DNA of 64,000 bases from Fibrobacter sp. UWB16 (GCF_900215325.1 NZ_OCMS01000001.1:1178001-1242000), one strand, 5' to 3'; positions 1,359 to 31,363 are shown, counted from the stretch's first letter. The notes: generated by a model from the letters alone, not told the origin. Made by a program: numbers and translations.

Positions 1359-2861
1359 ATGAAGGTCTTGCTAGATACAAACATCATCATTCACAGAGAA
1401 GCTAGTCATGTAGAGAACCAGGATATCGGCACTCTCTTCAAATGGCTAGATCGCACCCACTGCGAAAAAATCGTCCATTCTAAATCAATCGAAAAAATTC
1501 TCAAGAACAAAAACGCCACAACCGTTAAGTCATTCAAGGCAAAAATTCAGAACTACGAAATTCTGCAAAATCCTTCGCCTATTGCAGAAGAGGTCCTCGT
1601 CGTGTCCAAAAAGATGGACACAACCGAAAATGACTCCGTAGACACCATTTTGCTTAACGAAGTCTTCTGCGATCGTGTTGACTTGCTAATTACCGAAGAC
1701 AAAAAGATTCATGCAAAAGCTGCCGCTCTAAATATTTCAGATAAAGTCTTCAACATAGACCGCTTCCTAGAAAAGGTTTTCTCCGAGAATCCGGAATTGG
1801 TCAACTACAAGGTCTTGAATGTTCAAAAGGTTCCTTTTGGAAAGATTGATTTGAACGACCCCTTCTTTCAGTCCTTAAAAGATGATTATGAGGGTTTCGA
1901 TAAATGGTTTCTGCGGAAATATGACGAAGCCGCTTATATTACCATAAATTCGAACAACGGAAAATTGCTCTCATTCCTTTATGTCAAGAAAGAAGATGAA
2001 TCGGAAAACTACGCCGACATCACGCCTCCGTTGCCGCCCAAGAAGCGCTTAAAGGTCGGGACTTTCAAAGTTATTAGTAACGGTTTTAGACTTGGCGAAA
2101 GATTTTTGAAGATAATCTTTGACAACGCCTTAAAAAACAAGGTCGAAGAAATCTATGTAACGATTTTCGATAGGACCGACGAGCAGAAGCGGTTAATTGC
2201 CCTTATGGAAAAGTGGGGCTTTGTCTATTGGGAGAAGAAGGGCGGCGAGAGAGTATATGTTCGTGACTTCAACCCGAATTTTTTCATAGAAGATGTTTGC
2301 AAGACCTATCCCTACATTTCAAAAAATCGCGATACATTTATAGTCCCCATTTATCCCGACTACCATACGGAACTGCTACCCGACTCCATTCTCAATACGG
2401 AATCGCCGAGCGATTTTGTGGAAGATTCGCCCCATCGGAATAGTATTTCGAAGGTGTATGTATCGCGAGCCTATGAACCGCACCCCAAGATTGGGGACCT
2501 TCTTGTGTTCTATCGAACGGGTGGATTATACAAAAGCGTCATTACCACAATCGGTATTGTAACTGAAATTAAGGAAAATTTCAGCAATAAAGAAGAATTT
2601 GTTACTTACTGCAGCAAGGGTAGCGTATTCCCAGAGAAAGAACTCGAGAAAATGTGGGATTATCGCCATCAAAGACCTTTTGTGGTGAGCTTTCTTTATG
2701 TATATTCTTTCCCAAATAGAATAAACATGAGCAAGTTGATTGACATGGGCATCTTTAACGGAGTCAATGACGCACCCCGCGGTTTTAGGTTAATTTCTAA
2801 AAACCAGTTTGAAAGCATTTTAAAGGAGACCGCCAGTGAAGGCCGTTTTATTGTCGATTAA
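1359..2861 (+). CDS. PIN - GNAT - PUA/EVE-like fusion protein
   Basis: A 500-residue cytoplasmic protein with three recognisable parts. Residues 1-150 read as a PIN-type ribonuclease: LLDTNIIIH at the start, DSVDTILL and LLITEDKKIHA later, which supply the usual acidic residues. About residues 185-300 read as a GNAT acetyltransferase-like fold, with FRLGERFLKIIFDNA as the probable acetyl-CoA loop and an EKWGF strand near its end. About residues 320-500 contain GDLLVFYRTGG and resemble PUA/EVE-type modified-nucleic-acid binding domains. A strong AAGGAGG fixes the start. It overlaps the ASCH gene by 26 bp, so the two are co-translated. The best guess is a toxin or defence effector with its partner. 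Domain calls are by pattern; the GNAT and EVE-like parts are less certain than the PIN domain. Confidence 0.75.
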   Translation: MKVLLDTNIIIHREASHVENQDIGTLFKWLDRTHCEKIVHSKSIEKILKNKNATTVKSFKAKIQNYEILQNPSPIAEEVLVVSKKMDTTENDSVDTILLNEVFCDRVDLLITEDKKIHAKAAALNISDKVFNIDRFLEKVFSENPELVNYKVLNVQKVPFGKIDLNDPFFQSLKDDYEGFDKWFLRKYDEAAYITINSNNGKLLSFLYVKKEDESENYADITPPLPPKKRLKVGTFKVISNGFRLGERFLKIIFDNALKNKVEEIYVTIFDRTDEQKRLIALMEKWGFVYWEKKGGERVYVRDFNPNFFIEDVCKTYPYISKNRDTFIVPIYPDYHTELLPDSILNTESPSDFVEDSPHRNSISKVYVSRAYEPHPKIGDLLVFYRTGGLYKSVITTIGIVTEIKENFSNKEEFVTYCSKGSVFPEKELEKMWDYRHQRPFVVSFLYVYSFPNRINMSKLIDMGIFNGVNDAPRGFRLISKNQFESILKETASEGRFIVD

Positions 2862-3213
2862 GCCTGAATTCGCTCACAAGATTTTTGAGGGCTCAAAAAA
2901 GTATGAGTTCCGCAAGCAGGTCTTCAAGGATTTGTCCATAAAGAAGGTCATCGTGTATTCTTCATCACCAGAACAGAAGGTTATCGGAGAATTTGAAATC
3001 GAGACAATCTTGGATGGTACGCCCGACAAAATCTGGATTCAAACTAGACTATATTCAGGGATTTCTCAAGAGTTCTTCGAGAGTTACTTTGAAGGTCGAG
3101 ACAAGGCTTATGCAATCAAGGTGGCCTCAACCAAAAGATACTCCAAGCACAAATCCCTTGCCGATTTCAACATTCATACTGCACCGCAATCTTTTGCGTA
3201 TGTGAATGTGTGA
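2836..3213 (+). CDS. ASCH domain protein
   Basis: A 125-residue protein that is essentially one ASCH domain (PUA-like fold, predicted RNA or modified-base binding): LLSIKPEFAHKIFEGSKKYE near the N-terminus, the FRKQVF that follows, and VIGEFEIETIL in the middle are typical of the family. It starts at a GTG preceded by AAGGAG (2823-2828), inside the 3' end of the PIN-GNAT gene, so expression is tightly coupled. It is likely the sensor or antidote partner of that fusion. The ASCH call is firm; the role as partner is inferred from the overlap. Confidence 0.8.
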   Translation: MKAVLLSIKPEFAHKIFEGSKKYEFRKQVFKDLSIKKVIVYSSSPEQKVIGEFEIETILDGTPDKIWIQTRLYSGISQEFFESYFEGRDKAYAIKVASTKRYSKHKSLADFNIHTAPQSFAYVNV

Positions 3214-3247
3214 TTTTACAAATATTTTGCCGGACACTTAGAGAAAC

Positions 3248-4252
3248 ATGCCTAAAAAAAAATTGCATATTACAATTGGAACTAGTTTTAGTGGAATTGG
3301 AGCACCTGAACAAGCGCTAAAGAAATTGGGTGTAAACGAAAAAATTTTATTCGCAGGAGATATTGATCCTTTTTGTAAACAAGCCTTTTTTGCCAATTAT
3401 CAAATAAGTGAATCTGATTGGCATTCTGATGTTCGTAATTTTTCAGCAACACGTTTTGCAGGTCAATTGGATTTATTTGTTGGAGGGAGTCCATGTCAAT
3501 CCTTTTCTGTAATGGGAAAAAGAAAAGGGTTAGAAGAAGCTCGAGGTACACTTTTTTATGAGTACGCAAGAATTGTATCAGAAGCAAAGCCAAAAGTTTT
3601 TATATATGAAAATGTCACAGGGATGTTAAATCATGATCATGGACAAACATGGAATGTAATTTCAGGAATATTTGACAGTCTTGGATATGATTGGAAACTT
3701 TGGGTTTTGAATGCTAAAGATTTCGGTCTTCCGCAGAATCGTAGGCGCATTTTTGTAATCGGATTTGAAAAAAAATACAAAGAATGGTTTAATAAGTTAA
3801 AGGAACCTGAAAAAATAAACTTAAATGAGGATATGAAATTTTTTTTGGATAAATCGGTACCTAATAAGTACTATTTACCAGAAAAAGGCTTTAACCGTGT
3901 TATTGATCCAAATCAATCTAAACATGTTGCTTTAAATGGCAAAATTGCACGGTGTCAAGTAGCCTGTCAACAATACAATTGGTTTGGCGATATGCGTTTT
4001 GAATCCCAAATTCCCAAACGTATTGAAGACGATCCAAGAATTTACAAAGGGGTTTATCAGGGAACACGAGGCATAGCGAGGACGTTAACGCCACGAGAAT
4101 GTTTACGATTAATGGGTTTTCCTGAAGATTTCAAAATTGTAGTAAACGACATGCAGACATACCGACAAGCTGGAAATTCAATGGCTGTAAATGTTATGGA
4201 AAATGTTATAAAAAGTATCCTAAAGACCGGAATATTTGGAGATTTTAGATGA
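3248..4252 (+). CDS. DNA (cytosine-5) methyltransferase 1, LlaJI-type system
   Basis: C5-cytosine methyltransferase of 334 residues. Motif I is SFSGIGAPE (about 13-21), the catalytic loop is GGSPCQSFS with Cys83, ENV is at 121-123, QNRRR at 163-167 and GNSM at about 309-312. The target-recognition part between motifs VIII and IX is short. Its ATG-side neighbour is the ASCH gene 34 bp upstream. Its stop overlaps the start of a second, related methyltransferase by 4 bp. Two m5C enzymes in tandem fit an asymmetric recognition site in which each strand needs its own enzyme, as known for LlaJI. The gene is clearly more AT-rich than the window average, which suggests transfer. The recognition sequence cannot be read from the protein. 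Confidence 0.93.
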   Translation: MPKKKLHITIGTSFSGIGAPEQALKKLGVNEKILFAGDIDPFCKQAFFANYQISESDWHSDVRNFSATRFAGQLDLFVGGSPCQSFSVMGKRKGLEEARGTLFYEYARIVSEAKPKVFIYENVTGMLNHDHGQTWNVISGIFDSLGYDWKLWVLNAKDFGLPQNRRRIFVIGFEKKYKEWFNKLKEPEKINLNEDMKFFLDKSVPNKYYLPEKGFNRVIDPNQSKHVALNGKIARCQVACQQYNWFGDMRFESQIPKRIEDDPRIYKGVYQGTRGIARTLTPRECLRLMGFPEDFKIVVNDMQTYRQAGNSMAVNVMENVIKSILKTGIFGDFR

Positions 4253-5343
4253 AAAACATATTGAAGGTCGCATCAGTTTTTAGTGGAATTGGAGCTCCAG
4301 AGTTTGCTCTTAAAAGAAGCGGTATTCCGCATAAACTTGTATTTGCATGTGATAACGGAGAAATTGATTTATTAAAGTCTGATGAAGAAATTCTTGAAAA
4401 CCTAAAGGGATTATCGTTCTCAGAAAGGCGAACTTACATAGCTTCCCTTTTACCCAAAAGAACAAATCATGTAAAAAAATCTTTCTTAGCAAATTATGAT
4501 CTCGACGAAAAGCATTTTCATCATAATGTAAAGTTACTTGACGGAACTGAATACAAAAATAAAGTTGATTTATTTATTGGAGGGAGTCCTTGTCAAAGTT
4601 TCACACTATTAGGATACCAAAAAGGATTAGAAGAAGCTCGCGGAACTTTATTTTATGAATTTGCAAGATTGATTAAAGAAATAGAACCTAAAGCCTTTAT
4701 ATATGAAAATGTTCAGGGACTTGTAAAACATGATGGTGGCAAAACTTGGGATGTTGTCCAACGAGTATTCGCATCTTTGGGCTATACAATCCATTATCAA
4801 ATTATGGACGCTGTAAACTATGGAATTCCTCAAAAAAGACGTCGTATTTTTGTAGTAGGTTTTAAAAGAGGTGGGGAAAATTTCGAATTTCCCCCAATTA
4901 AGGAATTAAATTACACTCTTCAAGACTTTTTGCTGGAAAACACACCTGAAGGAAATTTCACATCAAATAATGGCGAAATTTGTATTAAGCATGCAAAAGG
5001 TGAAATTCCAGAAAAATATTATTTATCAGAAAAAATTTTACCCGGAATTTTAAGTGAAGGTTCTGGAGGATTTTCTATGAAGCCAGAAATCGACCTAAAA
5101 ATAGCCCGCCCATTGATGCGCACGATGCATAAAATGCATCGTGCGGGAGAAGATAATTACGTAACAACAAACGGTAGAATTCGGCGGCTTATACCAAGAG
5201 AATGTCTGCGACTGATGGGATTCACAGACGATTTCAAGCAAGTCGTATCAGATTGTCAAATGTATCAACAAGCAGGTAATTCTATGGTAGTCGACGTTAT
5301 GATGGCTCTAATAAAGGAAGTTAAAAGGAATATCAAAATATGA
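4249..5343 (+). CDS. DNA (cytosine-5) methyltransferase 2, LlaJI-type system
   Basis: A second C5-cytosine methyltransferase, 364 residues, paralogous to its upstream neighbour: FSGIGAPE (11-18), GGSPCQSF with Cys115, ENV at 153-155, QKRRRIFVVG in the middle and AGNSM near the C-terminus. It differs by an insertion of about 30 residues after motif I (residues 36-75). The 4-bp ATGA overlaps at both ends tie it to the first methyltransferase and to the NTPase. The coding sequence contains a perfect 12-bp inverted repeat with a 3-nt loop (5119-5145). It presumably protects the strand not modified by the first enzyme. Confidence 0.93.
   Translation: MKNILKVASVFSGIGAPEFALKRSGIPHKLVFACDNGEIDLLKSDEEILENLKGLSFSERRTYIASLLPKRTNHVKKSFLANYDLDEKHFHHNVKLLDGTEYKNKVDLFIGGSPCQSFTLLGYQKGLEEARGTLFYEFARLIKEIEPKAFIYENVQGLVKHDGGKTWDVVQRVFASLGYTIHYQIMDAVNYGIPQKRRRIFVVGFKRGGENFEFPPIKELNYTLQDFLLENTPEGNFTSNNGEICIKHAKGEIPEKYYLSEKILPGILSEGSGGFSMKPEIDLKIARPLMRTMHKMHRAGEDNYVTTNGRIRRLIPRECLRLMGFTDDFKQVVSDCQMYQQAGNSMVVDVMMALIKEVKRNIKI
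5119..5145. repeat. Perfect 12-bp inverted repeat inside methyltransferase 2
   Basis: CGCACGATGCAT (5119-5130), loop AAA, ATGCATCGTGCG (5134-5145). It is in frame and encodes part of the region before motif IX. It is one of two such 12-bp, 3-nt-loop palindromes inside genes of this island. Confidence 0.9.
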
Positions 5344-6857
5344 GTGAACAATTTGATCTAAATATTGCAGGACATAGCGCAACATTAAAAATAGAACCAA
5401 CTGGTTCTAAGGATACAGGCATTTTCTTTCCACCAGAATTAATAGATTTTTTGGGAGGAATGGAAAACTTGTCTTTTATCATTTACAAGGATGATTGTAT
5501 AGCAGCAATGGCAAGCATTATTGCATCCTTGCCATTATATTCGAATAAAGGCGGAGAAAAGATAAGTCATGATTCTCCATCTGAAGTTTGTTCATCTTAT
5601 ATGAAAATGATAAATGAATTCTTTGGTCAGAATAAAACAACCATATACAAAGATTTCAAGCCATCAGAAACTACACAGTCCCGTAGATATCTTTACGGAC
5701 TTGACAAGGGTAATTTTTCCATACGAAAATTTTTAATTGCAAACTATTCAACACTTTCTTTTTTAAAGGATGATAAGAATCAATTTCATTTAAGAATAAA
5801 AACAAATGTAGTTCAATTCAAGCAAAATCCGTTGCCAGAAGGGAACGCCGCTATCGATATTGATGACGTTAGAGTAAATTTCCAAGCACCGCAAAATCAG
5901 TTGATTAAGCAAAAAATTATTTTTGGCGCACCCGGAACGGGAAAATCTCATCAGCTAGAGGAATATTGTAAAACCTATTTCTGCGACAGTGAGATATCTA
6001 ATAGTGCTGAGGAAATTGGGAAACGTTATGAACGTGCTACTTTTTACCCCAATTATAGCTTCGCTCAGTTCGTCGGAACATATAAGCCTGTTCAAAATAC
6101 TGAAAAAGGAAAGGAATCTGAGATTCTGTATAAGTATATCCCGGGGCCGTTCTTGCGAATCCTAGTAAAGGCACTGCAAAATCCTGAACAAAATTTTCTT
6201 CTCATTATTGAAGAAATCAATCGAGCTAACGTTGCTGCTGTTTTTGGAGATGTATTCCAACTTCTTGACCGTAAAAATGGCGTCAGTGAATACCCTATTG
6301 CCGCAAGTGAAGATATCAAGAAATACTTAAAAGACAACGGAATTGACCATTGTGATGAGTTGAGAATCCCCAACAACATGTATATCTGGGCAACAATGAA
6401 CAGTGCCGACCAGGGAGTATTCCCTATGGATACTGCATTCAAACGCCGTTGGGAATTCGAGTACATTGGTATCAACGAGAAAGAAGACGATATGAAGAAT
6501 TACGAAATACCAATGCAAAAAAAAGAAGAAAGTTCTCGTGAATGGATGAACTGGAATGAACTCCGTCATAAAATAAATGATAGGTTGACAGATCTAAAAA
6601 TCAACGAAGACAAATTGCTTGGTCCCTATTTTATTTCTGAAGAAAAACTGAAGTTAGTTGAAGGTAGAAAAGTAGAAAATGCTGAAGAATTTGTAAAATT
6701 CTTCAAGAGCAAGGTGCTGATGTACCTCTTTGAAGATGCTGTAAAGATGCGTCCTAGAGACCTTTTTGATGAAAATACAATTAGCAGGTTACGATTCTCG
6801 GATATCTGCGAAAAGTTCGATGAAATCGGTCAAAGAATTTTCAATTTTACCAAATGA
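5340..6857 (+). CDS. McrB-like NTPase subunit of LlaJI-type restriction enzyme (R1)
   Basis: A 505-residue protein with an N-terminal part of about 190 residues that I do not recognise, possibly DNA-binding, followed by an AAA+ module of the McrB class. Walker A is GAPGTGKS (196-203), Walker B LLIIEEINR (287-295), the McrB-type signature TMNSAD is at 352-357 and an arginine-rich FKRRWEF at 367-373. In McrBC and LlaJI this subunit uses NTP hydrolysis to translocate DNA and activate the partner nuclease. It overlaps methyltransferase 2 by 4 bp and the nuclease subunit by 4 bp, so all four genes form one translationally coupled operon. Confidence 0.88.
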   Translation: MSEQFDLNIAGHSATLKIEPTGSKDTGIFFPPELIDFLGGMENLSFIIYKDDCIAAMASIIASLPLYSNKGGEKISHDSPSEVCSSYMKMINEFFGQNKTTIYKDFKPSETTQSRRYLYGLDKGNFSIRKFLIANYSTLSFLKDDKNQFHLRIKTNVVQFKQNPLPEGNAAIDIDDVRVNFQAPQNQLIKQKIIFGAPGTGKSHQLEEYCKTYFCDSEISNSAEEIGKRYERATFYPNYSFAQFVGTYKPVQNTEKGKESEILYKYIPGPFLRILVKALQNPEQNFLLIIEEINRANVAAVFGDVFQLLDRKNGVSEYPIAASEDIKKYLKDNGIDHCDELRIPNNMYIWATMNSADQGVFPMDTAFKRRWEFEYIGINEKEDDMKNYEIPMQKKEESSREWMNWNELRHKINDRLTDLKINEDKLLGPYFISEEKLKLVEGRKVENAEEFVKFFKSKVLMYLFEDAVKMRPRDLFDENTISRLRFSDICEKFDEIGQRIFNFTK

Positions 6858-8332
6858 CAGAAGAAAAACCATCCCTATTTCAAGAATTGAAACGGTACAC
6901 CCCAAGAGAGATTAGGGAACTTTTGGGATGTACCTCTGAAAATGTAAAAGCTTACATAAACACACTACGAAAATACGGAATCGTAAAGATTGTCAAGAAC
7001 GAAAGTCTAGATTTTGCAGACTTGAATAATGACGACCTTGTTATAGCGGATTCTGCAGAAGAGGTGTTGGGAGCATGCTACAAATTTGATTTTGTAGGCG
7101 TAGTTGCTGTAAAAAATAAGGTGATTCTCTGCTATCCTAAATACACCTCAAGTACTGATGAAAAAAAAATTCGAGATGAATTGAAATTGGCAATAAAAGC
7201 CATTCGCAAATATGATTCTAAAGGCGAATTGGTTCATTTGCATAATAGAGACGATAAAGGCGAGTATAACAAATTGGCCTTGTCATTGCATATTTTGCAG
7301 GATTATTTCGAGAATGGCGTTTATACGAATATTCAAGAAATTATAGAAACTAATGGCGAAGGAGAAATCGATTGGGATCGAACGATTAACGAAACATTCG
7401 CCTACATCAAGAACAATCGTCCTTATTATCTTGAACTAAAAACACGCTTATCACAAAACGATGATTTAGATTATTTCAAGCGATTGCATGAATGTATCGT
7501 TACGCAATGCTCCAAATATCTCAAAGAATTAGATGTATTAGATTTCTTTGACATACCGGAAGTTCTTTTAAGCGAATCGGATTTGAAAGACTTTGGCGAT
7601 ACGGACTATATTCTTTACCGTTTGGAACGAGAAATAGCAAATCAGTTTGTCACAAAGAAACAGAACCTACTAAAAACGCTATATACATTTGTCGCCACAT
7701 CTGGAACGAGTTCGCAGGAAAATTCTTATAGTCTTTATGGCACTAACTGCATGAACTTGATTTGGGAAAAAGCCTGCGGACAGATATTTGGGAACATTCA
7801 TGATCAAGTCGAATCAGAAATAAAGAAACCTCAATGGTACTTGAACGGCGGTCATTATGAAACAAAATCTCTAATTCCGGATATCATAACCAAATGTGAA
7901 ATTAATGACAGGAATGTATTTTGCATACTAGATGGGAAATATTATCTGGTTAAAACGTCCGAGAATATTTCAGGAAATCCCGGCGTCCAAGATGTTGTAA
8001 AGCAATTCGCCTACCATGAATCTTTCCACGATTACCTTTGCGAACAGAATTGCAAATGTGTTTTTAATGCTTTCTTATTTCCACTTTTTGATGCAGATGG
8101 TTCTCCAGAAAAGGAAATTCTTATCCGCGGTTTTGTGACTATGCTAAAATGGGGCGTTGAACAACTTGTCCCAATATATCTTGTTTTCTTAAAGCCTGAG
8201 TTCGTGTGGATGAATTATATTAACGGATCCATTCAGAAGCCGGCGCTGATCGAAGCGATGAAACGCATTCGATTAGAAGATGTTTTTAGAAATGTGTTGA
8301 AATATCCAGATACCTTGCAGTATATGGAATAA
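6854..8332 (+). CDS. LlaJI-like restriction endonuclease subunit (R2)
   Basis: A 492-residue protein that matches the overall plan of the LlaJI restriction subunit (RE_LlaJI family, McrC-like role). The N-terminus (about 12-60) is a winged-helix-like segment with YTPREIRELLGCTSENVKAY. The C-terminal third has a PD-(D/E)xK nuclease signature: IPD at 341-343 and LDGKYY with Asp360 and Lys362. Gln-rich helix VVKQFAYH follows, as usual in these folds. It is the last gene of the four-gene operon and ends 15 bp before a convergent gene. With the McrB-like subunit it should cut unmodified DNA. The family assignment rests on gene order plus motifs. Confidence 0.82.
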   Translation: MTEEKPSLFQELKRYTPREIRELLGCTSENVKAYINTLRKYGIVKIVKNESLDFADLNNDDLVIADSAEEVLGACYKFDFVGVVAVKNKVILCYPKYTSSTDEKKIRDELKLAIKAIRKYDSKGELVHLHNRDDKGEYNKLALSLHILQDYFENGVYTNIQEIIETNGEGEIDWDRTINETFAYIKNNRPYYLELKTRLSQNDDLDYFKRLHECIVTQCSKYLKELDVLDFFDIPEVLLSESDLKDFGDTDYILYRLEREIANQFVTKKQNLLKTLYTFVATSGTSSQENSYSLYGTNCMNLIWEKACGQIFGNIHDQVESEIKKPQWYLNGGHYETKSLIPDIITKCEINDRNVFCILDGKYYLVKTSENISGNPGVQDVVKQFAYHESFHDYLCEQNCKCVFNAFLFPLFDADGSPEKEILIRGFVTMLKWGVEQLVPIYLVFLKPEFVWMNYINGSIQKPALIEAMKRIRLEDVFRNVLKYPDTLQYME

Positions 8333-8346
8333 AATTAAATCAAAAA

Positions 8347-10023
8347 CTAGGGCTTGCTAGATATCTTTAATAGATTTTTGATCCTTGCTTTTATATTCTC
8401 AAAACATACGTTCAACCGTAGTTTTGCCACATCAGTTAATCTAGATGTGTGGGCAACGGCGTCGCGAATAGGGGTGTACTCAATGCAGTCTCGTAGTAAA
8501 GTTGACTTTTTTTGTTTGTCTTTTTCGGTGTCAGCTATATAAGCTAGCTGTTCCATTCCGCAATACGATAAATCGTTGTCGTCATGTCGAATTTGTATGC
8601 TTAAATTCGCTTTATCTTTCTTTGCTTGATAGCCTTCCTTCCAATTTTTTATGTCATTTTTTAAACTATCTGGATATGCAATCTTTTGGGTAGTAATATA
8701 CTTTCGCAGTAGATTTTCCGCTAGAAAACAATCTCCATATGATTCGTAATTATAGACGGCATCGGGTTTTAACTCATTAATCCAAGAATTGACCCTATCT
8801 TTATCTTCGGTAGACGTTGTTTTGTCGAAATGAACGTAATCATCAGTAATGGCGTCATATAGCTCCTCAGACTTTCGCTGTCTTGGAGGTATTTTTTTAT
8901 TGTCGGAATCACCTGTTTTTCGATTGGCTCGACGTAAATCATCCCATTCTTCAATTATCTTCGCCATGATATCTTTTTTCAATACATCTAAAAGTGAATT
9001 GAATTTAGGATCGTCTGGAACAACTCCTTCTCGACTACTAGTAAAACGATCTGTATCATCGTCAAGTTCGTTGAAATGGATTTGACCATAAAGGTAACTT
9101 TCTACAATTCGAGTTGATGGAATATGACTCAAAATATTCTTTTCACGAAGTCTTCCATTAACAAAAAGGTCAACTGTTGCCTTTTCGTCTGAAGTTCTAA
9201 TTTTTAGTTTCGAAGGCGTATCAACAGAAGCGATAAACCCGGACACAGTCACGGATTCTGTGTATATTAAACGATGAGTGATTAAGCTTTTTGACTTTCG
9301 AATCGCTTTTTCAAAAGCATCATTATCATTATCATGGTTTATCAACCATAAGAACTGAGTATCATTTATTAATGGCTCCAAATCAACCATTGAAATTTCT
9401 TTTCCATTAACGCTTATATTAAAAGAAGGATCAAACAATGAAAATCTGAAGTCAAGAGCAATAAGTTGACGTAAATAATCAATGCGATTTTTTATGCCGT
9501 CATTCATCCCATTGAAAATAATTATAGTCCCATGAGAGAGTTTTTTGTTTTCTTTTAGCAAATCGGAATTTAACGGCGTAAGATTGTAATCATTGGGAGT
9601 TATGTCATCTTTAATTGCCTGATCTAGACGAGCATTGTCTATTGTTCCTCCCGTCAAGCTTGACTTTTGTGTTTTGGTAACGATGGAGATGCTTTTTGCG
9701 CAAGAAAGCAATGCCAACTTGCCAATACCCTTTCGTCCGATAAATGGACGTCTTGTTGGAGAGCAACTTTTTCCATCTTTTCTTTTAGAATATCCGATTT
9801 TTAGGAACTTATTTTGAAAATCGTCTGGCGTCATTCCAACACCATCATCTTGAACGACTAATTGGTTCTTTTCTCTGTCTATGTATATGTGGACATTTTT
9901 TGCGTCCGCATCCCATGAGTTAGATATAGCCTCGCCTATAACGGTTATAAGGCTTCGGTACAAATTTCTTCCTAAATGATTTAGAACACTTAAGGAAATG
10001 TTGAATTTATAGTTTTCCATCAT
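8347..10023 (-). CDS. MutL/MORC-like GHKL ATPase with C-terminal HEPN-like motif
   Basis: A 558-residue protein starting with a GHKL ATPase domain: the N box has Glu31, Asn35 and Asp38-Asp40 (EAISNSWDAD), DDGVGM is at 59-64 and GRKGIGKLA at 96-104. ATPases of this kind next to a cytosine methylase are known from the MutL/MORC-type restriction-modification systems described by Iyer, Abhiman and Aravind. Past about residue 380 no nuclease of a known restriction class is evident. The last 50 residues contain YTPIRDAVAH (R520-x4-H525) in a helical context, which fits the HEPN active-site pattern. It overlaps the upstream methyltransferase by 17 bp. The ATPase call is firm, the HEPN reading is tentative. 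Confidence 0.85.
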   Translation of the reverse strand: MMENYKFNISLSVLNHLGRNLYRSLITVIGEAISNSWDADAKNVHIYIDREKNQLVVQDDGVGMTPDDFQNKFLKIGYSKRKDGKSCSPTRRPFIGRKGIGKLALLSCAKSISIVTKTQKSSLTGGTIDNARLDQAIKDDITPNDYNLTPLNSDLLKENKKLSHGTIIIFNGMNDGIKNRIDYLRQLIALDFRFSLFDPSFNISVNGKEISMVDLEPLINDTQFLWLINHDNDNDAFEKAIRKSKSLITHRLIYTESVTVSGFIASVDTPSKLKIRTSDEKATVDLFVNGRLREKNILSHIPSTRIVESYLYGQIHFNELDDDTDRFTSSREGVVPDDPKFNSLLDVLKKDIMAKIIEEWDDLRRANRKTGDSDNKKIPPRQRKSEELYDAITDDYVHFDKTTSTEDKDRVNSWINELKPDAVYNYESYGDCFLAENLLRKYITTQKIAYPDSLKNDIKNWKEGYQAKKDKANLSIQIRHDDNDLSYCGMEQLAYIADTEKDKQKKSTLLRDCIEYTPIRDAVAHTSRLTDVAKLRLNVCFENIKARIKNLLKISSKP

Positions 10024-11110
10024 GAGCCTCGCATTGTTTTAAATGCTGCTTTATACTTTTCCCAATAATTTCCCCTAATTTTGGGGGGACAGCGTTCCCT
10101 ATATATCTGGACGCTAAAGTCGTTGATACAGATTTTTCATCTACAAAAAATTGATAATTTCTTGGGAACGTCTGTATCAAAGCGGCTTCCCGAAGAGATA
10201 TTGCTCTATCTTGTTCGGGATGTCCAAATCGTCCATTTCCTAAACCAGTACACTGTGTAGTCATTGTTGGAGCAGGTTTATTCCAATCCATACGACCATA
10301 TACACTACCGAAGGTTTTTCCACTATTCTTTTTATGACATTTTAGCTGAAGTTCTTTAGGCCAATCAGACCAACTTCCATTTGTAGGAGTTGCTTTTATT
10401 CGTTGAATATTCAAAGGTGTTAATGCTCGTGCTTTGTGTAAAGCATCATTTGGGTCCCTTTCTCCAGCTTCGATTGGCGGCAAATTTCCAATCACATCCT
10501 TTACGGTTACATAATTTTCTGCAGTGTGTGTTGGGGGGATTAATTCAATTTTTCCTTTTTTTGATGCTAATAAAACCAAACGTTTTCTTGTTTGAGGAAT
10601 ACCATAATCGGGACAAAAGACAACCTTATAGCTTACATTATACTCGTTACGTTCCAAGGTTTCGATAAAACGTTGAAAAACATGTTCCAATTTGAATTTC
10701 AAAATTTGCGGAACATTTTCCATAGTGACAATGTCGGGTTGAACTTCTTCCACTAGTCGTCCGAATTCATCTAGTAAACTGTACTTATTTGGGTCTTTAT
10801 TTTTGTTTTTAAATGCATATGAAGAAAATGGCTGGCAAGGAGCACACCCCGCAAGAACTCGAATTGCACCTTTACTATAAGTATTGTTTATTTCTTCGGC
10901 TGTTACTTTGCGAATATCTTCATATCGAAATTCAGCATTGTTGTTGTGATGATATGCATATTGGCAAGTATAGTCTAGATCATACCCGGCTTTAATTTTA
11001 AAGCCTTGGCTTTTTAATCCAAAACTTAGGCCTCCTATCCCGCAAAACAGATCAACAACTTCTATAGGAGGGGATTTCTTTTTTGCAGAACTCTTGCGTG
11101 ATTTAGCCAT
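10007..11110 (-). CDS. DNA (cytosine-5) methyltransferase, Dcm type
   Basis: A 367-residue m5C methyltransferase with a lysine/serine-rich start, then DLFCGIGGLSFG (20-31), catalytic APCQPFSSYAF with Cys92, MENVP at about 130-134, IPQTRKRLVL for motif VIII and GNAVPP at about 338-343. It is more canonical (Dcm/HaeIII-like) than the two enzymes of the LlaJI-type operon and is not their close paralogue. It is the first gene of a two-gene minus-strand unit with the GHKL ATPase, overlapping it by 17 bp, so the pair probably forms a separate restriction or restriction-like system. The start ATG is at 11110; upstream DNA is very AT-rich. Confidence 0.93.
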   Translation of the reverse strand: MAKSRKSSAKKKSPPIEVVDLFCGIGGLSFGLKSQGFKIKAGYDLDYTCQYAYHHNNNAEFRYEDIRKVTAEEINNTYSKGAIRVLAGCAPCQPFSSYAFKNKNKDPNKYSLLDEFGRLVEEVQPDIVTMENVPQILKFKLEHVFQRFIETLERNEYNVSYKVVFCPDYGIPQTRKRLVLLASKKGKIELIPPTHTAENYVTVKDVIGNLPPIEAGERDPNDALHKARALTPLNIQRIKATPTNGSWSDWPKELQLKCHKKNSGKTFGSVYGRMDWNKPAPTMTTQCTGLGNGRFGHPEQDRAISLREAALIQTFPRNYQFFVDEKSVSTTLASRYIGNAVPPKLGEIIGKSIKQHLKQCEAHDGKL

Positions 11111-12252: not shown

Positions 12253-12325
12253 ATTCCGAAAATTCTGAATAAGGGGACGCCTCTAACATCAACCGGCCGC
12301 AAATTGTGACCACATGGAGGCTAAT

Positions 12326-13408
12326 ATGGCTAAAAATAAAGAGAATGTCCCTGCAAAAGCGGTGGAATCGTTGTTCAATAAAATATCCCCTCTTATTACG
12401 CAATCTCGTAAAATGATTGCAACGACCATCAATACTGCTGAAGTCTGCACCAAATTCAAGATAGGCCAATATATAGTCGAAGATGAACAAAAAGGCAAAA
12501 GCCGAGCGGCATATGGGAAACAAGTACTCATTCATCTATCTGCCAGACTGATAGAAAAACATGGGGAAGGTTGGTCCGTTGAAACATTAACGCTCTGTAG
12601 AAAATTTTTCAATGTATATTCGAATTTCGTAAACGGTGTTTACGAAATTGAGGGCGAATATAAATTCACACTTTCTTGGTCGCATTACCTAGTGCTCATG
12701 CGCATCAAGAATGATGATGAACGCCGTTTTTACGAGATAGAGGCTACTTCCGGGAACTGGTCTGTTCGCGAGTTGCAGCGGCAGTATGGTTCAAGTCTGT
12801 ATGAACGCCTTGCGTTGAGCCGGGACAAGGAACAGGTTGCCCGCTTATCGCGAGTCGGCAACATGGTGGAGAAGCCGGAGGATATCATCAAGAACCCGGT
12901 GACGCTTGAGTTTGTCGGTTTGAAACCGGATGCATCGTATTCGGAATCGAACTTGGAATCCGCTATCATTAACAAGCTGCAAGAATTCCTGCTCGAACTG
13001 GGGAAAGGATTCCTGTTCGAAGCACGACAAAAACGATTCTCATTTGATGAGGATGACTACTATGTAGACTTGGTTTTGTACAATCGCCTGCTGCAATGCT
13101 ATGTACTCGTTGACTTAAAAGTCGACAAATTGACCCATCAAGATCTTGGCCAAATGCAGATGTACGTAAACTACTATGATCGTTATGTAAAGCAGAATTT
13201 CGAAAAGCCGACTATCGGCATTTTACTTTGCAAAGAGAAGAAGGATACCCTTGTGAGGTTGACGTTACCCGAAAATGCAAATATTTATGCATCCGCTTAT
13301 GAGTTGTATCTGCCGGACAAGAAACTTTTGCAAGCGAAGGTCAAAGAATGGGTAAATGAATTCGAAACGCAAGATGGTAGGACACCCCAATTGTCAGCCA
13401 ACGGATGA
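12326..13408 (+). CDS. yhcG: YhcG/DUF1016 family PD-(D/E)xK nuclease
   Basis: A 360-residue protein of the YhcG family. The N-terminal half (about 30-170) is the DUF1016 N-terminal domain: SWSHYLVLMRIKNDDERRFY and the WSVRELQRQYGSSLYERL segment are family hallmarks. The C-terminal half holds the PD-(D/E)xK nuclease with FLFEARQKRF, DDYYVDLVLYNRLL and VLVDLKVDKLTHQDLGQMQMY, giving the Asp and Asp-x-Lys residues. GGAGG at 12315-12319 places the start at the ATG 12326 rather than the in-frame ATG at 12314. Members are common in defence islands, though their substrate is unsettled. The gene carries a perfect 12-bp inverted repeat at 12623-12649. Confidence 0.9.
   Translation: MAKNKENVPAKAVESLFNKISPLITQSRKMIATTINTAEVCTKFKIGQYIVEDEQKGKSRAAYGKQVLIHLSARLIEKHGEGWSVETLTLCRKFFNVYSNFVNGVYEIEGEYKFTLSWSHYLVLMRIKNDDERRFYEIEATSGNWSVRELQRQYGSSLYERLALSRDKEQVARLSRVGNMVEKPEDIIKNPVTLEFVGLKPDASYSESNLESAIINKLQEFLLELGKGFLFEARQKRFSFDEDDYYVDLVLYNRLLQCYVLVDLKVDKLTHQDLGQMQMYVNYYDRYVKQNFEKPTIGILLCKEKKDTLVRLTLPENANIYASAYELYLPDKKLLQAKVKEWVNEFETQDGRTPQLSANG
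12623..12649. repeat. Perfect 12-bp inverted repeat inside yhcG
   Basis: AATTTCGTAAAC (12623-12634), loop GGT, GTTTACGAAATT (12638-12649), in frame, encoding the variable segment just before the SWSHY motif. It has the same arm and loop length as the palindrome at 5119-5145. Confidence 0.9.
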
Positions 13409-13460
13409 CAAATTGAAACATATCGAAATCGAAAAAAAACATATTGTATATACAGTTGTA

Positions 13461-13490
13461 TTGACACTAGCATATACATTTTTCTATAAT
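13461..13490 (+). promoter_or_regulatory. Consensus-like sigma70 promoter of the toxin-antitoxin pair
   Basis: TTGACA (13461-13466), an 18-bp spacer and TATAAT (13485-13490), both exact consensus, immediately before the AGAGGA ribosome site of the gene at 13505. It is the best promoter match in the window. Confidence 0.85.
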
Positions 13491-13504
13491 AAAGAGGACT
13501 TTAG

Positions 13505-13747
13505 ATGAATATTACGAAACACGCTTTTGAGAGAATGCGTGAAAGAGGCTTTAATGTAGAAATGCTTGCGAAAGTTCTACGGAAAAAGAACTTGGTACGG
13601 ATTTCATCAGATAGAGAAGGTGTATCTAAAATCGTTTCTGAAGTAGACAATCGTTTTTGGACATTGTTTGTATCCGACGACCTAAAAACTTTAATAACCG
13701 TAAGGAGAGCACATGAAGACGAAGAAAGAAAAGCACGAGAAGATTAA
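13505..13747 (+). CDS. DUF4258/RelE-like toxin candidate
   Basis: An 80-residue basic protein opening NITKHAFERMRERGF, with SKIVSEVDNRFWTLFVSDD in the middle and LITVRRAH near the end. This is the small alpha/beta plan of DUF4258-type proteins, relatives of the RelE/BrnT ribonuclease toxins. It is first in a two-gene unit behind a near-perfect promoter and overlaps the next gene by 35 bp. The size, the pairing and the charge support a toxin role; the fold call is moderate. Confidence 0.7.
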   Translation: MNITKHAFERMRERGFNVEMLAKVLRKKNLVRISSDREGVSKIVSEVDNRFWTLFVSDDLKTLITVRRAHEDEERKARED

Positions 13748-14048
13748 ATTACCTAAGGGTTTCAAACTAGTTGACGATTTTCTTTCCAAAGAAGAAATAG
13801 ATAGACTAGAGAACGACACAACCATAAAAGATCCAATAATTATTACCGGCGGACACGAGTCGGAAACTCTCGAAGAATCCATCGCCCGCATTAGCCGTGC
13901 CATTGCAGAGGCAAAAGAAGAAAAAAAGATGTATTCCATAAGACTCAAGGTCAAGACTGTTGACGCGATCAAGCGCAAAGCTGCAGCCGCAGGGATTCCG
14001 TATCAGACCTACGTGAATGTTCTGCTTGACAAGGCGGCTTTCGCTTAA
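13713..14048 (+). CDS. Antitoxin candidate with C-terminal CopG/BrnA-like DNA-binding region
   Basis: A 111-residue protein with an acidic middle (DDFLSKEEIDRLEND) and a C-terminal segment SIRLKVKTVDAIKRKAAAAG followed by YQTYVNVLLDKA. That is the beta-helix-helix plan of ribbon-helix-helix antitoxins such as BrnA. AAGGAGAG (about 13704-13711) lies inside the toxin gene and sets the ATG at 13713. The acidic part would bind the basic partner and the C-terminus an operator at the shared promoter. Confidence 0.72.
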   Translation: MKTKKEKHEKIKLPKGFKLVDDFLSKEEIDRLENDTTIKDPIIITGGHESETLEESIARISRAIAEAKEEKKMYSIRLKVKTVDAIKRKAAAAGIPYQTYVNVLLDKAAFA

Positions 14049-29578: not shown

Positions 29579-31363
29579 ATGTTTTCAGAAAAAAGAAATG
29601 TTTTACAGTTACTTTCGTTATTGAAAGCGCACAACATATCTAAATTCGTTGTTTCTCCTGGAAGCAGACACATTCCCATTGTAATTTCAATGGAATGTGA
29701 TCCGTTTTTCAAGTTATATTCTGTCGTAGACGAACGTAGTGCCTCTTTTTTTGCAATTGGTTTGATGCAAAGTACTAAAGAGCCTGTCGGCATTATCTGC
29801 ACATCAGGGACCGCATCTGCTAACTACTGTTCAGCAATCAATGAATGTTTATATCAGGAACTGCCTCTGCTTATAATAACAGCTGATAGAGAAGAGGCTC
29901 TTAGGGATCAACACGAAGACCAAATGATCCGTCAATCCAATATGTATGTAAACATAGCTAAGATGGTCGCCAATTTACCATTAGTCAATACAGAACGAGA
30001 CGCCTGGTTCAACAATAGGTTGATCAACGAAGCTCTATTGGAGTTAAATCATCATGGGTGCGGTCCTGTACAAATAAATATTCCCATTCCAGAGCACATG
30101 GATTCGTTTACAACACAAGCTCTTCCGCAAGAACGGAAAATATCTCGATTCGATTTAGATTCAATTAATTGGCAAAATATATCGCAACGGCTAACAAATA
30201 AGAAGGTCGTTATTGTTTGTGGTGAAGGTTTTGTTCCAACAAAAAATCAATTGAATGATTTGGAATTATTTGCAAAAAAATATGATTCCGTTATCCTTTC
30301 AGATAAAATGAGCAACTGTCATACCGCAAACAGCATTGAGAATGCATTTGCCATATTGCAGGCGCTCTCAGGAAAAGATTTAACAGAAATTGCACCCGAC
30401 ATCATTATTTCCATTCGTGCAAATTTTTCATTCAACCCGGAGCTAAAAGGTCTTGTCAAAAATCTTCGTACAAAAGGTTTTAAAATACAGAACTGGTTTG
30501 TTCATCAAAGTGGACGCGTTGTTGATCCCTATCAAGGTTTGCTGACTGATATCTTTGAAATGGATGAATTCACATTCTTCAGAAATGTTGCTTTACAAAA
30601 AAATGATGAAAAAGAAGAATCCGACTATTCTGAATCTTGGAAAGTTATTTCCGAATCCATTGAAGAGCCTAAATTTGAATTTGGACATTTGAAAAGTGTC
30701 GGGGAATTTCTAAAAAGGATTCCTAAAAACAGCGTACTACACCTAGCTAATAGCAATTCCGTCAGAATGGCGCAATTATACAACGTAGATTCCTCTGTAG
30801 AAATTCATTGTAACAGAGGAACTGATGGTATAGATGGTTGTATGTCTTCTGCAGTGGGTTTTGCAAGTAATTCAGCAAAGTTGAATTACTTGATGATTGG
30901 AGATTTAACATTTTTCTATGATATGAACGCTCTGTGGAATCCGCAATTGAGAAAGAACCTAAGAATATTATTGGACAACAATGGTGGCGGAGCAATTATG
31001 CATATGCCCCAAAGACCACAATTTGCGCTAGATTTGTTGCCTAATTATATATCAGCATGTCACAACGCAAGTGCCAAAGCCTGGGCCGAAGATCGAGGCT
31101 TTAAATACTACTCTGCAAGGAATGCTGAGGAATTGCAAAATGGGGTGGATGCACTTACCGATGTTAATGTAGAAGGTCCGATACTTCTTGAGGTATTTAC
31201 CAACCTTTTTGACGATGTAAAATGTTTAAAAGAATATTACGCTCAAATCGACAGAAATAAGCTTGATAAAAGCCTTACAACTCGTTCTAAACAAGTTATA
31301 AGAAAGGTCTGTTCGATCTTAGGAATAGACCCTCAAAAAATAAAGAACGCAATACACAAATAA
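29579..31363 (+). CDS. MenD-like thiamine diphosphate enzyme
   Basis: A 594-residue protein that aligns by motif with MenD (SEPHCHC synthase) from end to end. It has SPGSRHIPIV, the ThDP-activating glutamate in DERSASFFAIGL, CTSGTASANYCSA, ITADREEALRD, NRGTDGIDG and the ThDP-binding GDLTFFYDMNAL ... DNNGGG. MenD joins a decarboxylated 2-oxoglutarate to isochorismate in menaquinone synthesis. Here it is the last gene of a polysaccharide operon beside an SDR, with no other men gene in view. A role in making a branched or acyl-extended sugar or an unusual polymer substituent is therefore possible. It may also be the cell's menaquinone enzyme relocated. Confidence 0.82.
   Translation: MFSEKRNVLQLLSLLKAHNISKFVVSPGSRHIPIVISMECDPFFKLYSVVDERSASFFAIGLMQSTKEPVGIICTSGTASANYCSAINECLYQELPLLIITADREEALRDQHEDQMIRQSNMYVNIAKMVANLPLVNTERDAWFNNRLINEALLELNHHGCGPVQINIPIPEHMDSFTTQALPQERKISRFDLDSINWQNISQRLTNKKVVIVCGEGFVPTKNQLNDLELFAKKYDSVILSDKMSNCHTANSIENAFAILQALSGKDLTEIAPDIIISIRANFSFNPELKGLVKNLRTKGFKIQNWFVHQSGRVVDPYQGLLTDIFEMDEFTFFRNVALQKNDEKEESDYSESWKVISESIEEPKFEFGHLKSVGEFLKRIPKNSVLHLANSNSVRMAQLYNVDSSVEIHCNRGTDGIDGCMSSAVGFASNSAKLNYLMIGDLTFFYDMNALWNPQLRKNLRILLDNNGGGAIMHMPQRPQFALDLLPNYISACHNASAKAWAEDRGFKYYSARNAEELQNGVDALTDVNVEGPILLEVFTNLFDDVKCLKEYYAQIDRNKLDKSLTTRSKQVIRKVCSILGIDPQKIKNAIHK

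Follow-up and report, generated by a model that had tools for sequence, protein, structure and literature searches.

Background

The closest described relatives of the locus reported here are the type II restriction-modification (R-M) systems BbrUII and HgiDII, in which a C-5 cytosine (m5C) methylase adjoins a GHKL+S5 ATPase of the paraMORC3 type carrying a C-terminal PD-(D/E)xK DNase (PMC2292703). This restriction-endonuclease-fold domain, with its E-D-ExK motifs, belongs to the definition of paraMORC3 (Iyer et al. 2008, PMC2292703); the target of the methylase M.HgiDII is GTCGAC (PMC5867850). In the paraMORC4-type ATPases the same chassis bears a TIR-like effector (Iyer 2008). A GHKL ATPase also controls a C-terminal nuclease of phage defence in the Shedu protein VcSduA, where both activities are required; the effector there is a DUF4263 DNase, and the system is described with neither a methylase nor a HEPN domain (PMC12137116).

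Fusion proteins in which a GHKL paraMORC ends in a HEPN domain of the Ymh family (PF09509) were predicted from sequence in R-M loci and proposed to be PrrC/RloC-like (Anantharaman et al. 2013, PMC3710099). In the literature searched, this is the only work in which HEPN and paraMORC come together, and no experimental test was found. PrrC and RloC likewise have a HEPN RNase that is tied to R-M and coupled to an ATPase; however, this ATPase is of the ABC type, the guard/sensor logic is another one, and the anticodon nuclease is proven. HEPN domains are recognised by an Rx4-6H motif whose arginine is followed by a polar residue (N/D/H) and by an upstream acidic residue, usually within Ex3[KR]; the canonical layout consists of two helical hairpins, an insert separates helix 2 from helix 3, and helix 3 ends in the Rx4-6H motif (Anantharaman et al. 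2013, PMC3710099).

Here we describe a methylase-ATPase pair of Fibrobacter sp. UWB16 which, as far as could be searched, is a variant of the kind predicted in 2013 with a different predicted HEPN family. It lies in a stretch of 64,000 nucleotides (GCF_900215325.1, NZ_OCMS01000001.1:1178001-1242000), called the window below; all coordinates are counted from its first letter unless another sequence is named.

Results

The gene pair and its neighbours

The pair is located on the chromosome among other defence genes. A first-pass annotation, made from the sequence alone, had read positions 8347-11110 as a cytosine methylase with a GHKL ATPase, and this reading is borne out by two intact open reading frames, by Pfam matches and by the motifs present in both proteins. 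The features are as follows.

10007-11110, minus strand: m5C (C-5 cytosine DNA) methyltransferase, 367 aa (PF00145, E=4.6e-65; TIGR00675).
8347-10023, minus strand: paraMORC3-type GHKL+S5 ATPase with a C-terminal HEPN-like domain, 558 aa, intact reading frame.
10007-10023, minus strand: overlap of the methylase stop and the ATPase start, 17 bp, from the reading frame coordinates.

Motifs I, IV (PCQ), VI (ENV), VIII and X of the methylase were all found, which makes a complete catalytic set. The ATPase matches HATPase_c_3 (E=3e-22) and contains an N-box (EAISNSWDA) and the boxes G1 (DDGVGM) and G2 (GRKGIG). Overlaps of the two genes by 4 to 47 bp are also found in five homologous loci (L001, L013, L023, L027 and L029), and translational coupling of methylase and ATPase through the overlap is likely. 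A scan of the locus for promoters and terminators gave nothing above the shuffled expectation.

The first-pass annotation had seen no separate nuclease gene beside the pair. For the window this does not hold, considering the following operon and a YhcG-type gene on the other side of the pair.

3248-8332, plus strand: LlaJI-like R-M operon with two m5C methylases, a McrB-like AAA+ protein and an RE_LlaJI nuclease (Pfam/PADLOC).

The operon, of a McrBC-like R-M type, is transcribed convergently to the pair, and 14 bp separate its end from the stop codon of the ATPase; its nuclease matches PF09563 with E=1e-58. Directly upstream of it, at 1359-3213 (plus strand), there are a PIN-like protein (assigned by eye) that has a weak EVE match and then an ASCH-domain protein. 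The YhcG/DUF1016 PD-(D/E)xK gene (12314-13408) is followed by a toxin-antitoxin pair of DUF4258 and BrnA/CopG-like proteins, and this whole segment (12314-14048, plus strand) represents a defence-island context. Farther away, at 29579-31363 (plus strand), a MenD-like thiamine-diphosphate enzyme (by eye) lies beside an SDR reductase in a glycosyltransferase/polysaccharide cluster.

The ATPase module

The proposal of the first-pass annotation that the pair is a MutL/MORC-type restriction system stands as far as membership in an R-M ATPase family is concerned, and can be narrowed to the BbrUII/HgiDII-paraMORC3 type.

8914-10011, minus strand: GHKL+S5 ATPase module, residues 5-370 (NF050001 and PADLOC REase_II matches).

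It is over these residues only that the protein is homologous to the BbrUII/HgiDII restriction enzymes and matches their family profile NF050001 (E=1.7e-91); the score of 308 bits falls far short of the cut-off, which is 550, with profile positions 1-367 of 659 covered and positions 368-659 unmatched. The model of residues 21-222 has the GHKL fold, with Z of 12-13 to SMCHD1, Hsp90 and MORC. Nuclease-type relatives that adjoin methylases on plasmids and in one phage are about 650-680 aa long, and one of them bears the annotation ParaMORC3; the two that were scanned (P0004 and P0006) match NF050001 over its full length with 751 and 779 bits. The E..D..(D/E)xK site is conserved in the alignment of the nuclease types (A9). 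The PD-(D/E)xK nuclease domain typical of NF050001 and paraMORC3 is missing from the window ATPase by both profile and alignment. Judged by sequence, the chassis is that of the BbrUII/HgiDII-paraMORC3 family without the nuclease domain of this family. The DUF4263 PD-(D/E)xK domain of Shedu and VcSduA-like proteins gave no Pfam match in the window ATPase either, and membership in PrrC/RloC was rejected, the ATPase being GHKL and not ABC-type.

Homologues and their neighbourhoods

The homologue set comprises eight loci, about six of them independent: the window, F. succinogenes RUG13674 (L001), a third Fibrobacter (L011/L004), two plasmids (L013 and L014) and three phage-like contigs (L023, L027 and L029). 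A search of 168 genomes of the phylum gave three matches, all in Fibrobacter; the homologue of RUG13674 is 92% identical to that of the window. The plasmids, from Paracoccus and Celeribacter, are small (19-20 kb), and the L014 homologue is interrupted by an IS. The viral homologues are found beside integrase or tail genes, and the viral scans saturate at a few distinct contigs. In the third Fibrobacter genome (L004/L011) the methylase is frameshifted and the ATPase-HEPN gene is split across two contig ends; possibly, this is an inactivated copy.

Every homologous locus has the methylase immediately upstream of the ATPase, and no other partner is constant. No nuclease gene is shared across these loci, so that the expectation of a system without an obligatory nuclease partner agrees with the neighbourhoods. 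Those nucleases that do occur nearby vary, LlaJI being found in the window and L001, and Vsr+Dcm or MvaI/BcnI elements a few genes off on the plasmids and in L027; near the pairs of L023 and L029 there is none. The LlaJI nuclease and McrB adjoin the pair only in Fibrobacter (window and L001), and the LlaJI nuclease as an obligatory partner was ruled out by its absence beside the plasmid and viral homologues, for which the first-pass remark on the missing nuclease is correct as regards LlaJI. The LlaJI-like operon is probably a system separate from the methylase-ATPase pair. L001 has kept the McrB and LlaJI nuclease homologues, and the methylase adjoining them differs from that of the window. 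On the phage-like contig L023, a separate Ymh HEPN gene (9594-10394; PF09509, E=6e-41) is found two genes downstream of the pair.

The C-terminal domain

The same annotation had pointed to RDAVAH at residues 520-525, in a helical setting, as a HEPN ribonuclease signature. We located the motif as described, close to where a predicted helix ends, together with a second motif upstream.

8365-8826, minus strand: predicted HEPN-like helical domain, residues about 400-553 (~155 aa; domain-only model, VIA-align).
8704-8718, minus strand: E436-N-L-L-R440, HEPN Ex3[KR] motif.
8449-8466, minus strand: R520-D-A-V-A-H525, HEPN Rx4H motif, the R being followed by a polar residue.

A bare Rx4H is weak evidence, being present in 45% of shuffles of the whole ATPase, and R[ND]xxxH arises in 1.5% of shuffles of the C-terminus; RDAVAH has its weight because R520 and H525 are conserved, not because the motif is there. 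None of the eight homologues departs from R520, H525, E436 or R440, position 521 is D or N in the alignment, and both motifs that define HEPN (PMC3710099) are present in 8/8. H525 alone is invariant among the three histidines of the domain. The pairwise identity of the domain is mostly 36-60% among the eight, the window-L001 and L013-L014 pairs being closer. Between the window and L001 the segment with the Rx4H motif (residues 506-558) has a dN/dS of 0.03. The ATPase gene is a mosaic in this comparison (8347-10023 of the window against 7115-8788 of L001), with a dS of 0.14 over residues 1-370 and 1.9 over residues 400-505, which suggests recombination or local reshuffling of the effector half between the two genes.

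The domain was folded alone because the full-length model is poor (pLDDT 56) outside the C-terminus and the GHKL core. The domain-only AlphaFold2 model, built from five sequences, has a pLDDT of 80 and four helices (33-73, 80-100, 137-154 and 159-183 in domain numbering) forming two helical hairpins with a long insert between helices 2 and 3; Rx4H is at 148-153, at the end of helix 3. The model is thus predicted to have the HEPN helix layout, in line with the fold expected by the first-pass annotation. The top VIA-align match is the HEPN protein 1wwp (Z 8.4, rmsd 3.0 over 98 residues), a Z that is modest for helical folds, and the next dozen include the HEPNs MntA-HepT (6m6u and 7bxo), SO_3166 (5yep), HI0074 (1jog), Csm6 (6tug) and 4nqf. 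Helical bundles can reach Z values of 6.5-8.4, as observed here, by chance, and some non-HEPN bundles score alike; we regard the structural neighbours as evidence supporting HEPN, not as proof. Csm6 takes ranks 1 and 4 in Foldseek with non-significant E-values; a BFVD structure search with the domain gave no significant match, and a sequence-profile search of solved structures gave none at E<=10.

The curated Pfam HEPN families do not match the domain. PF09509 (Ymh) gave no match up to E=10 in three members and up to E=1 in three more, and hhalign of the domain with a Ymh protein returned a probability of 1.7%; membership in the Ymh family was rejected on this profile search and hhalign comparison. 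A search for Ymh in 61 Fibrobacter genomes found none; a control likewise matched nothing, so this absence is not firm. The paraMORC-Ymh fusions share with the window protein a GHKL paraMORC and a C-terminal HEPN in an R-M locus, but differ in the HEPN family. In Neisseria (L068, 2578-4221) we observed a Ymh (HEPN) domain behind the remnant of a paraMORC, in an interrupted reading frame, consistent with the fusion predicted in 2013; the Neisseria ATPase is only about 25% identical to that of the window. Because of this low identity of the Ymh-type ATPase and the missing PF09509 match, the window domain looks like a recruitment separate from Ymh.

The L027 domain (one member) matches PADLOC PDC-M34B weakly, with E=0.0018. 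A relative of PDC-M34B from another Fibrobacter (L036, 733-1998) also matches this profile, reaches HEPN_Swt1 at 0.0016, which is below the curated cut-off, and carries LENSIRK and YRCDVAH, the same motif pair as in the window domain. It is probable that PDC-M34B, a candidate defence family, belongs to the Swt1-like HEPNs.

Proposed exchange of the effector

When 25 ATPase modules are placed in one tree, the HEPN-type proteins fall into a single clade (100/100) that branches from within the nuclease-type paraMORC3s; a node of 100/100 holds six HEPN-type and six nuclease-type proteins, with remoter nuclease types outside. Among the methylases, sequences of both types are intermingled within a single starred group (98/99). 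This nesting and this intermingling indicate a single swap on the same chassis, and the simplest reading of the sequences is that a BbrUII/HgiDII-type system exchanged its DNase domain for a HEPN domain in a single event, with the methylase and the ATPase kept. Kinship of the two C-termini was considered and rejected: hhalign aligns only a linker stretch of 22 columns, and the domains look unrelated. Among 24 further viral paraMORC-like proteins, the nuclease-domain profile matches 18 and the HEPN-type profile none. Most effectors seen on this chassis are DNases. In Listeria (L069) a methylase (2416-3471) is followed by a paraMORC (3477-5411) with a TIR-like C-terminus of the paraMORC4 type, assigned by eye without Pfam confirmation.

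Discussion

The suggestion that the system has a HEPN effector instead of a DNA nuclease is supported by the missing paraMORC3 nuclease domain and by the replacement seen in the tree, the RNase itself being predicted from sequence. Three outcomes had been named in advance as refuting it, namely variation at Arg520 or His525, a different predicted fold of the C-terminus and a partner nuclease in all homologous loci; none of them occurred. We consider it fairly probable that the pair is an R-M-derived defence or addiction module with a HEPN ribonuclease in place of the DNase. GHKL ATPases undergo ATP-dependent dimer closure, and the active site of HEPN RNases is built by two HEPN domains; on these grounds we infer the steps of clamp closure and RNase activation. 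The methylase would modify its target site in the host genome. Like MutL, MORC and Hsp90, the ATPase would be a dimer that ATP closes into a clamp, and it would engage DNA with unmethylated sites; such DNA could enter with a phage or plasmid, or could be that of the host itself once the methylase is lost. Closure driven by ATP may then join the two C-terminal HEPN domains into a composite metal-independent RNase site around R520, H525 and E436, and cleavage of tRNA, mRNA or rRNA would arrest growth or block phage production, with DNA methylation as the antidote to the RNase. The RNase activity, its target and its trigger are here proposed, and a methylation-guarded RNase working by abortive infection or addiction appears most likely. 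Weighing against it are the lack of a match to curated HEPN families, Z values that helical bundles can attain by chance and the small set of homologues; the HEPN-type systems may also respond to something else than unmethylated DNA.

It is tempting to suppose that addiction comes first and defence second: after loss of a plasmid or prophage the host DNA would become unmethylated and trigger the HEPN RNase, so that segregants are killed, the methylase being the antidote and ATPase-HEPN the toxin. Addiction behaviour is established for type II R-M systems, and the homologues on small plasmids of Paracoccus and Celeribacter and on phage-like contigs near integrase and tail genes are in favour of such a role; the Fibrobacter pair, however, is chromosomal and surrounded by other defence genes. 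Addiction as the primary function is rather unlikely in our opinion, although it is compatible with the methylation-guarded RNase and the mechanism is common to both.

A less probable possibility is that the C-terminal domain is a non-catalytic HEPN-like binder of RNA, DNA or protein and that another nuclease, e.g., a LlaJI-type complex or a host nuclease, cuts in trans. Certain HEPN domains are indeed non-catalytic (PMC3710099), and a LlaJI-type nuclease lies at 14 bp in the window and adjoins the pair in L001; but the predicted catalytic residues are invariant, which is unexpected for a domain that only binds, and none of the plasmid and viral homologues has a LlaJI operon next to it. We also doubt strongly that the fold is not HEPN and that Rx4H is a coincidence in an unrelated helical dimerisation domain. 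Such a view could rely on the curated HEPN families, which give no significant profile match, and on the spurious structural matches of helical bundles, but it leaves aside two independent HEPN motifs that are invariant at the expected places, a best structural match that is HEPN, and the invariance of H525 alone among the histidines of the domain. That ATPase-HEPN guards a neighbouring R-M system as PrrC does, being released when a phage inhibits the adjacent restriction complex, is very improbable: the HEPN RNases of PrrC and RloC do come together with R-M systems (PMC3710099) and LlaJI does adjoin the pair in Fibrobacter, but the constant partner everywhere is a dedicated overlapping methylase and not a second R-M system.

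Returning to the methylation-guarded RNase, the wider proposal is that a type II R-M system became an RNase gated by DNA methylation, its DNase swapped once for an undescribed HEPN family, and that the methylase-GHKL chassis accepts exchangeable effectors (DNase, TIR, Ymh-HEPN and the present HEPN). We hold this to be an evenly balanced proposition.

Conclusions

If the proposal is true, an RNase is under the control of a DNA modification mark, R-M is not confined to DNA cutting, and a domain swap rewires the recognition and methylation machinery to abortive infection. Since the DNase and HEPN relatives share the methylase and ATPase families, the effectors are swappable and the catalytic residues mutable. 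The way in which a GHKL clamp recognises DNA as unmodified and relays this to its effector, a long-standing gap for MORC and paraMORC proteins, would become directly testable, because the effectors are exchangeable among close relatives.
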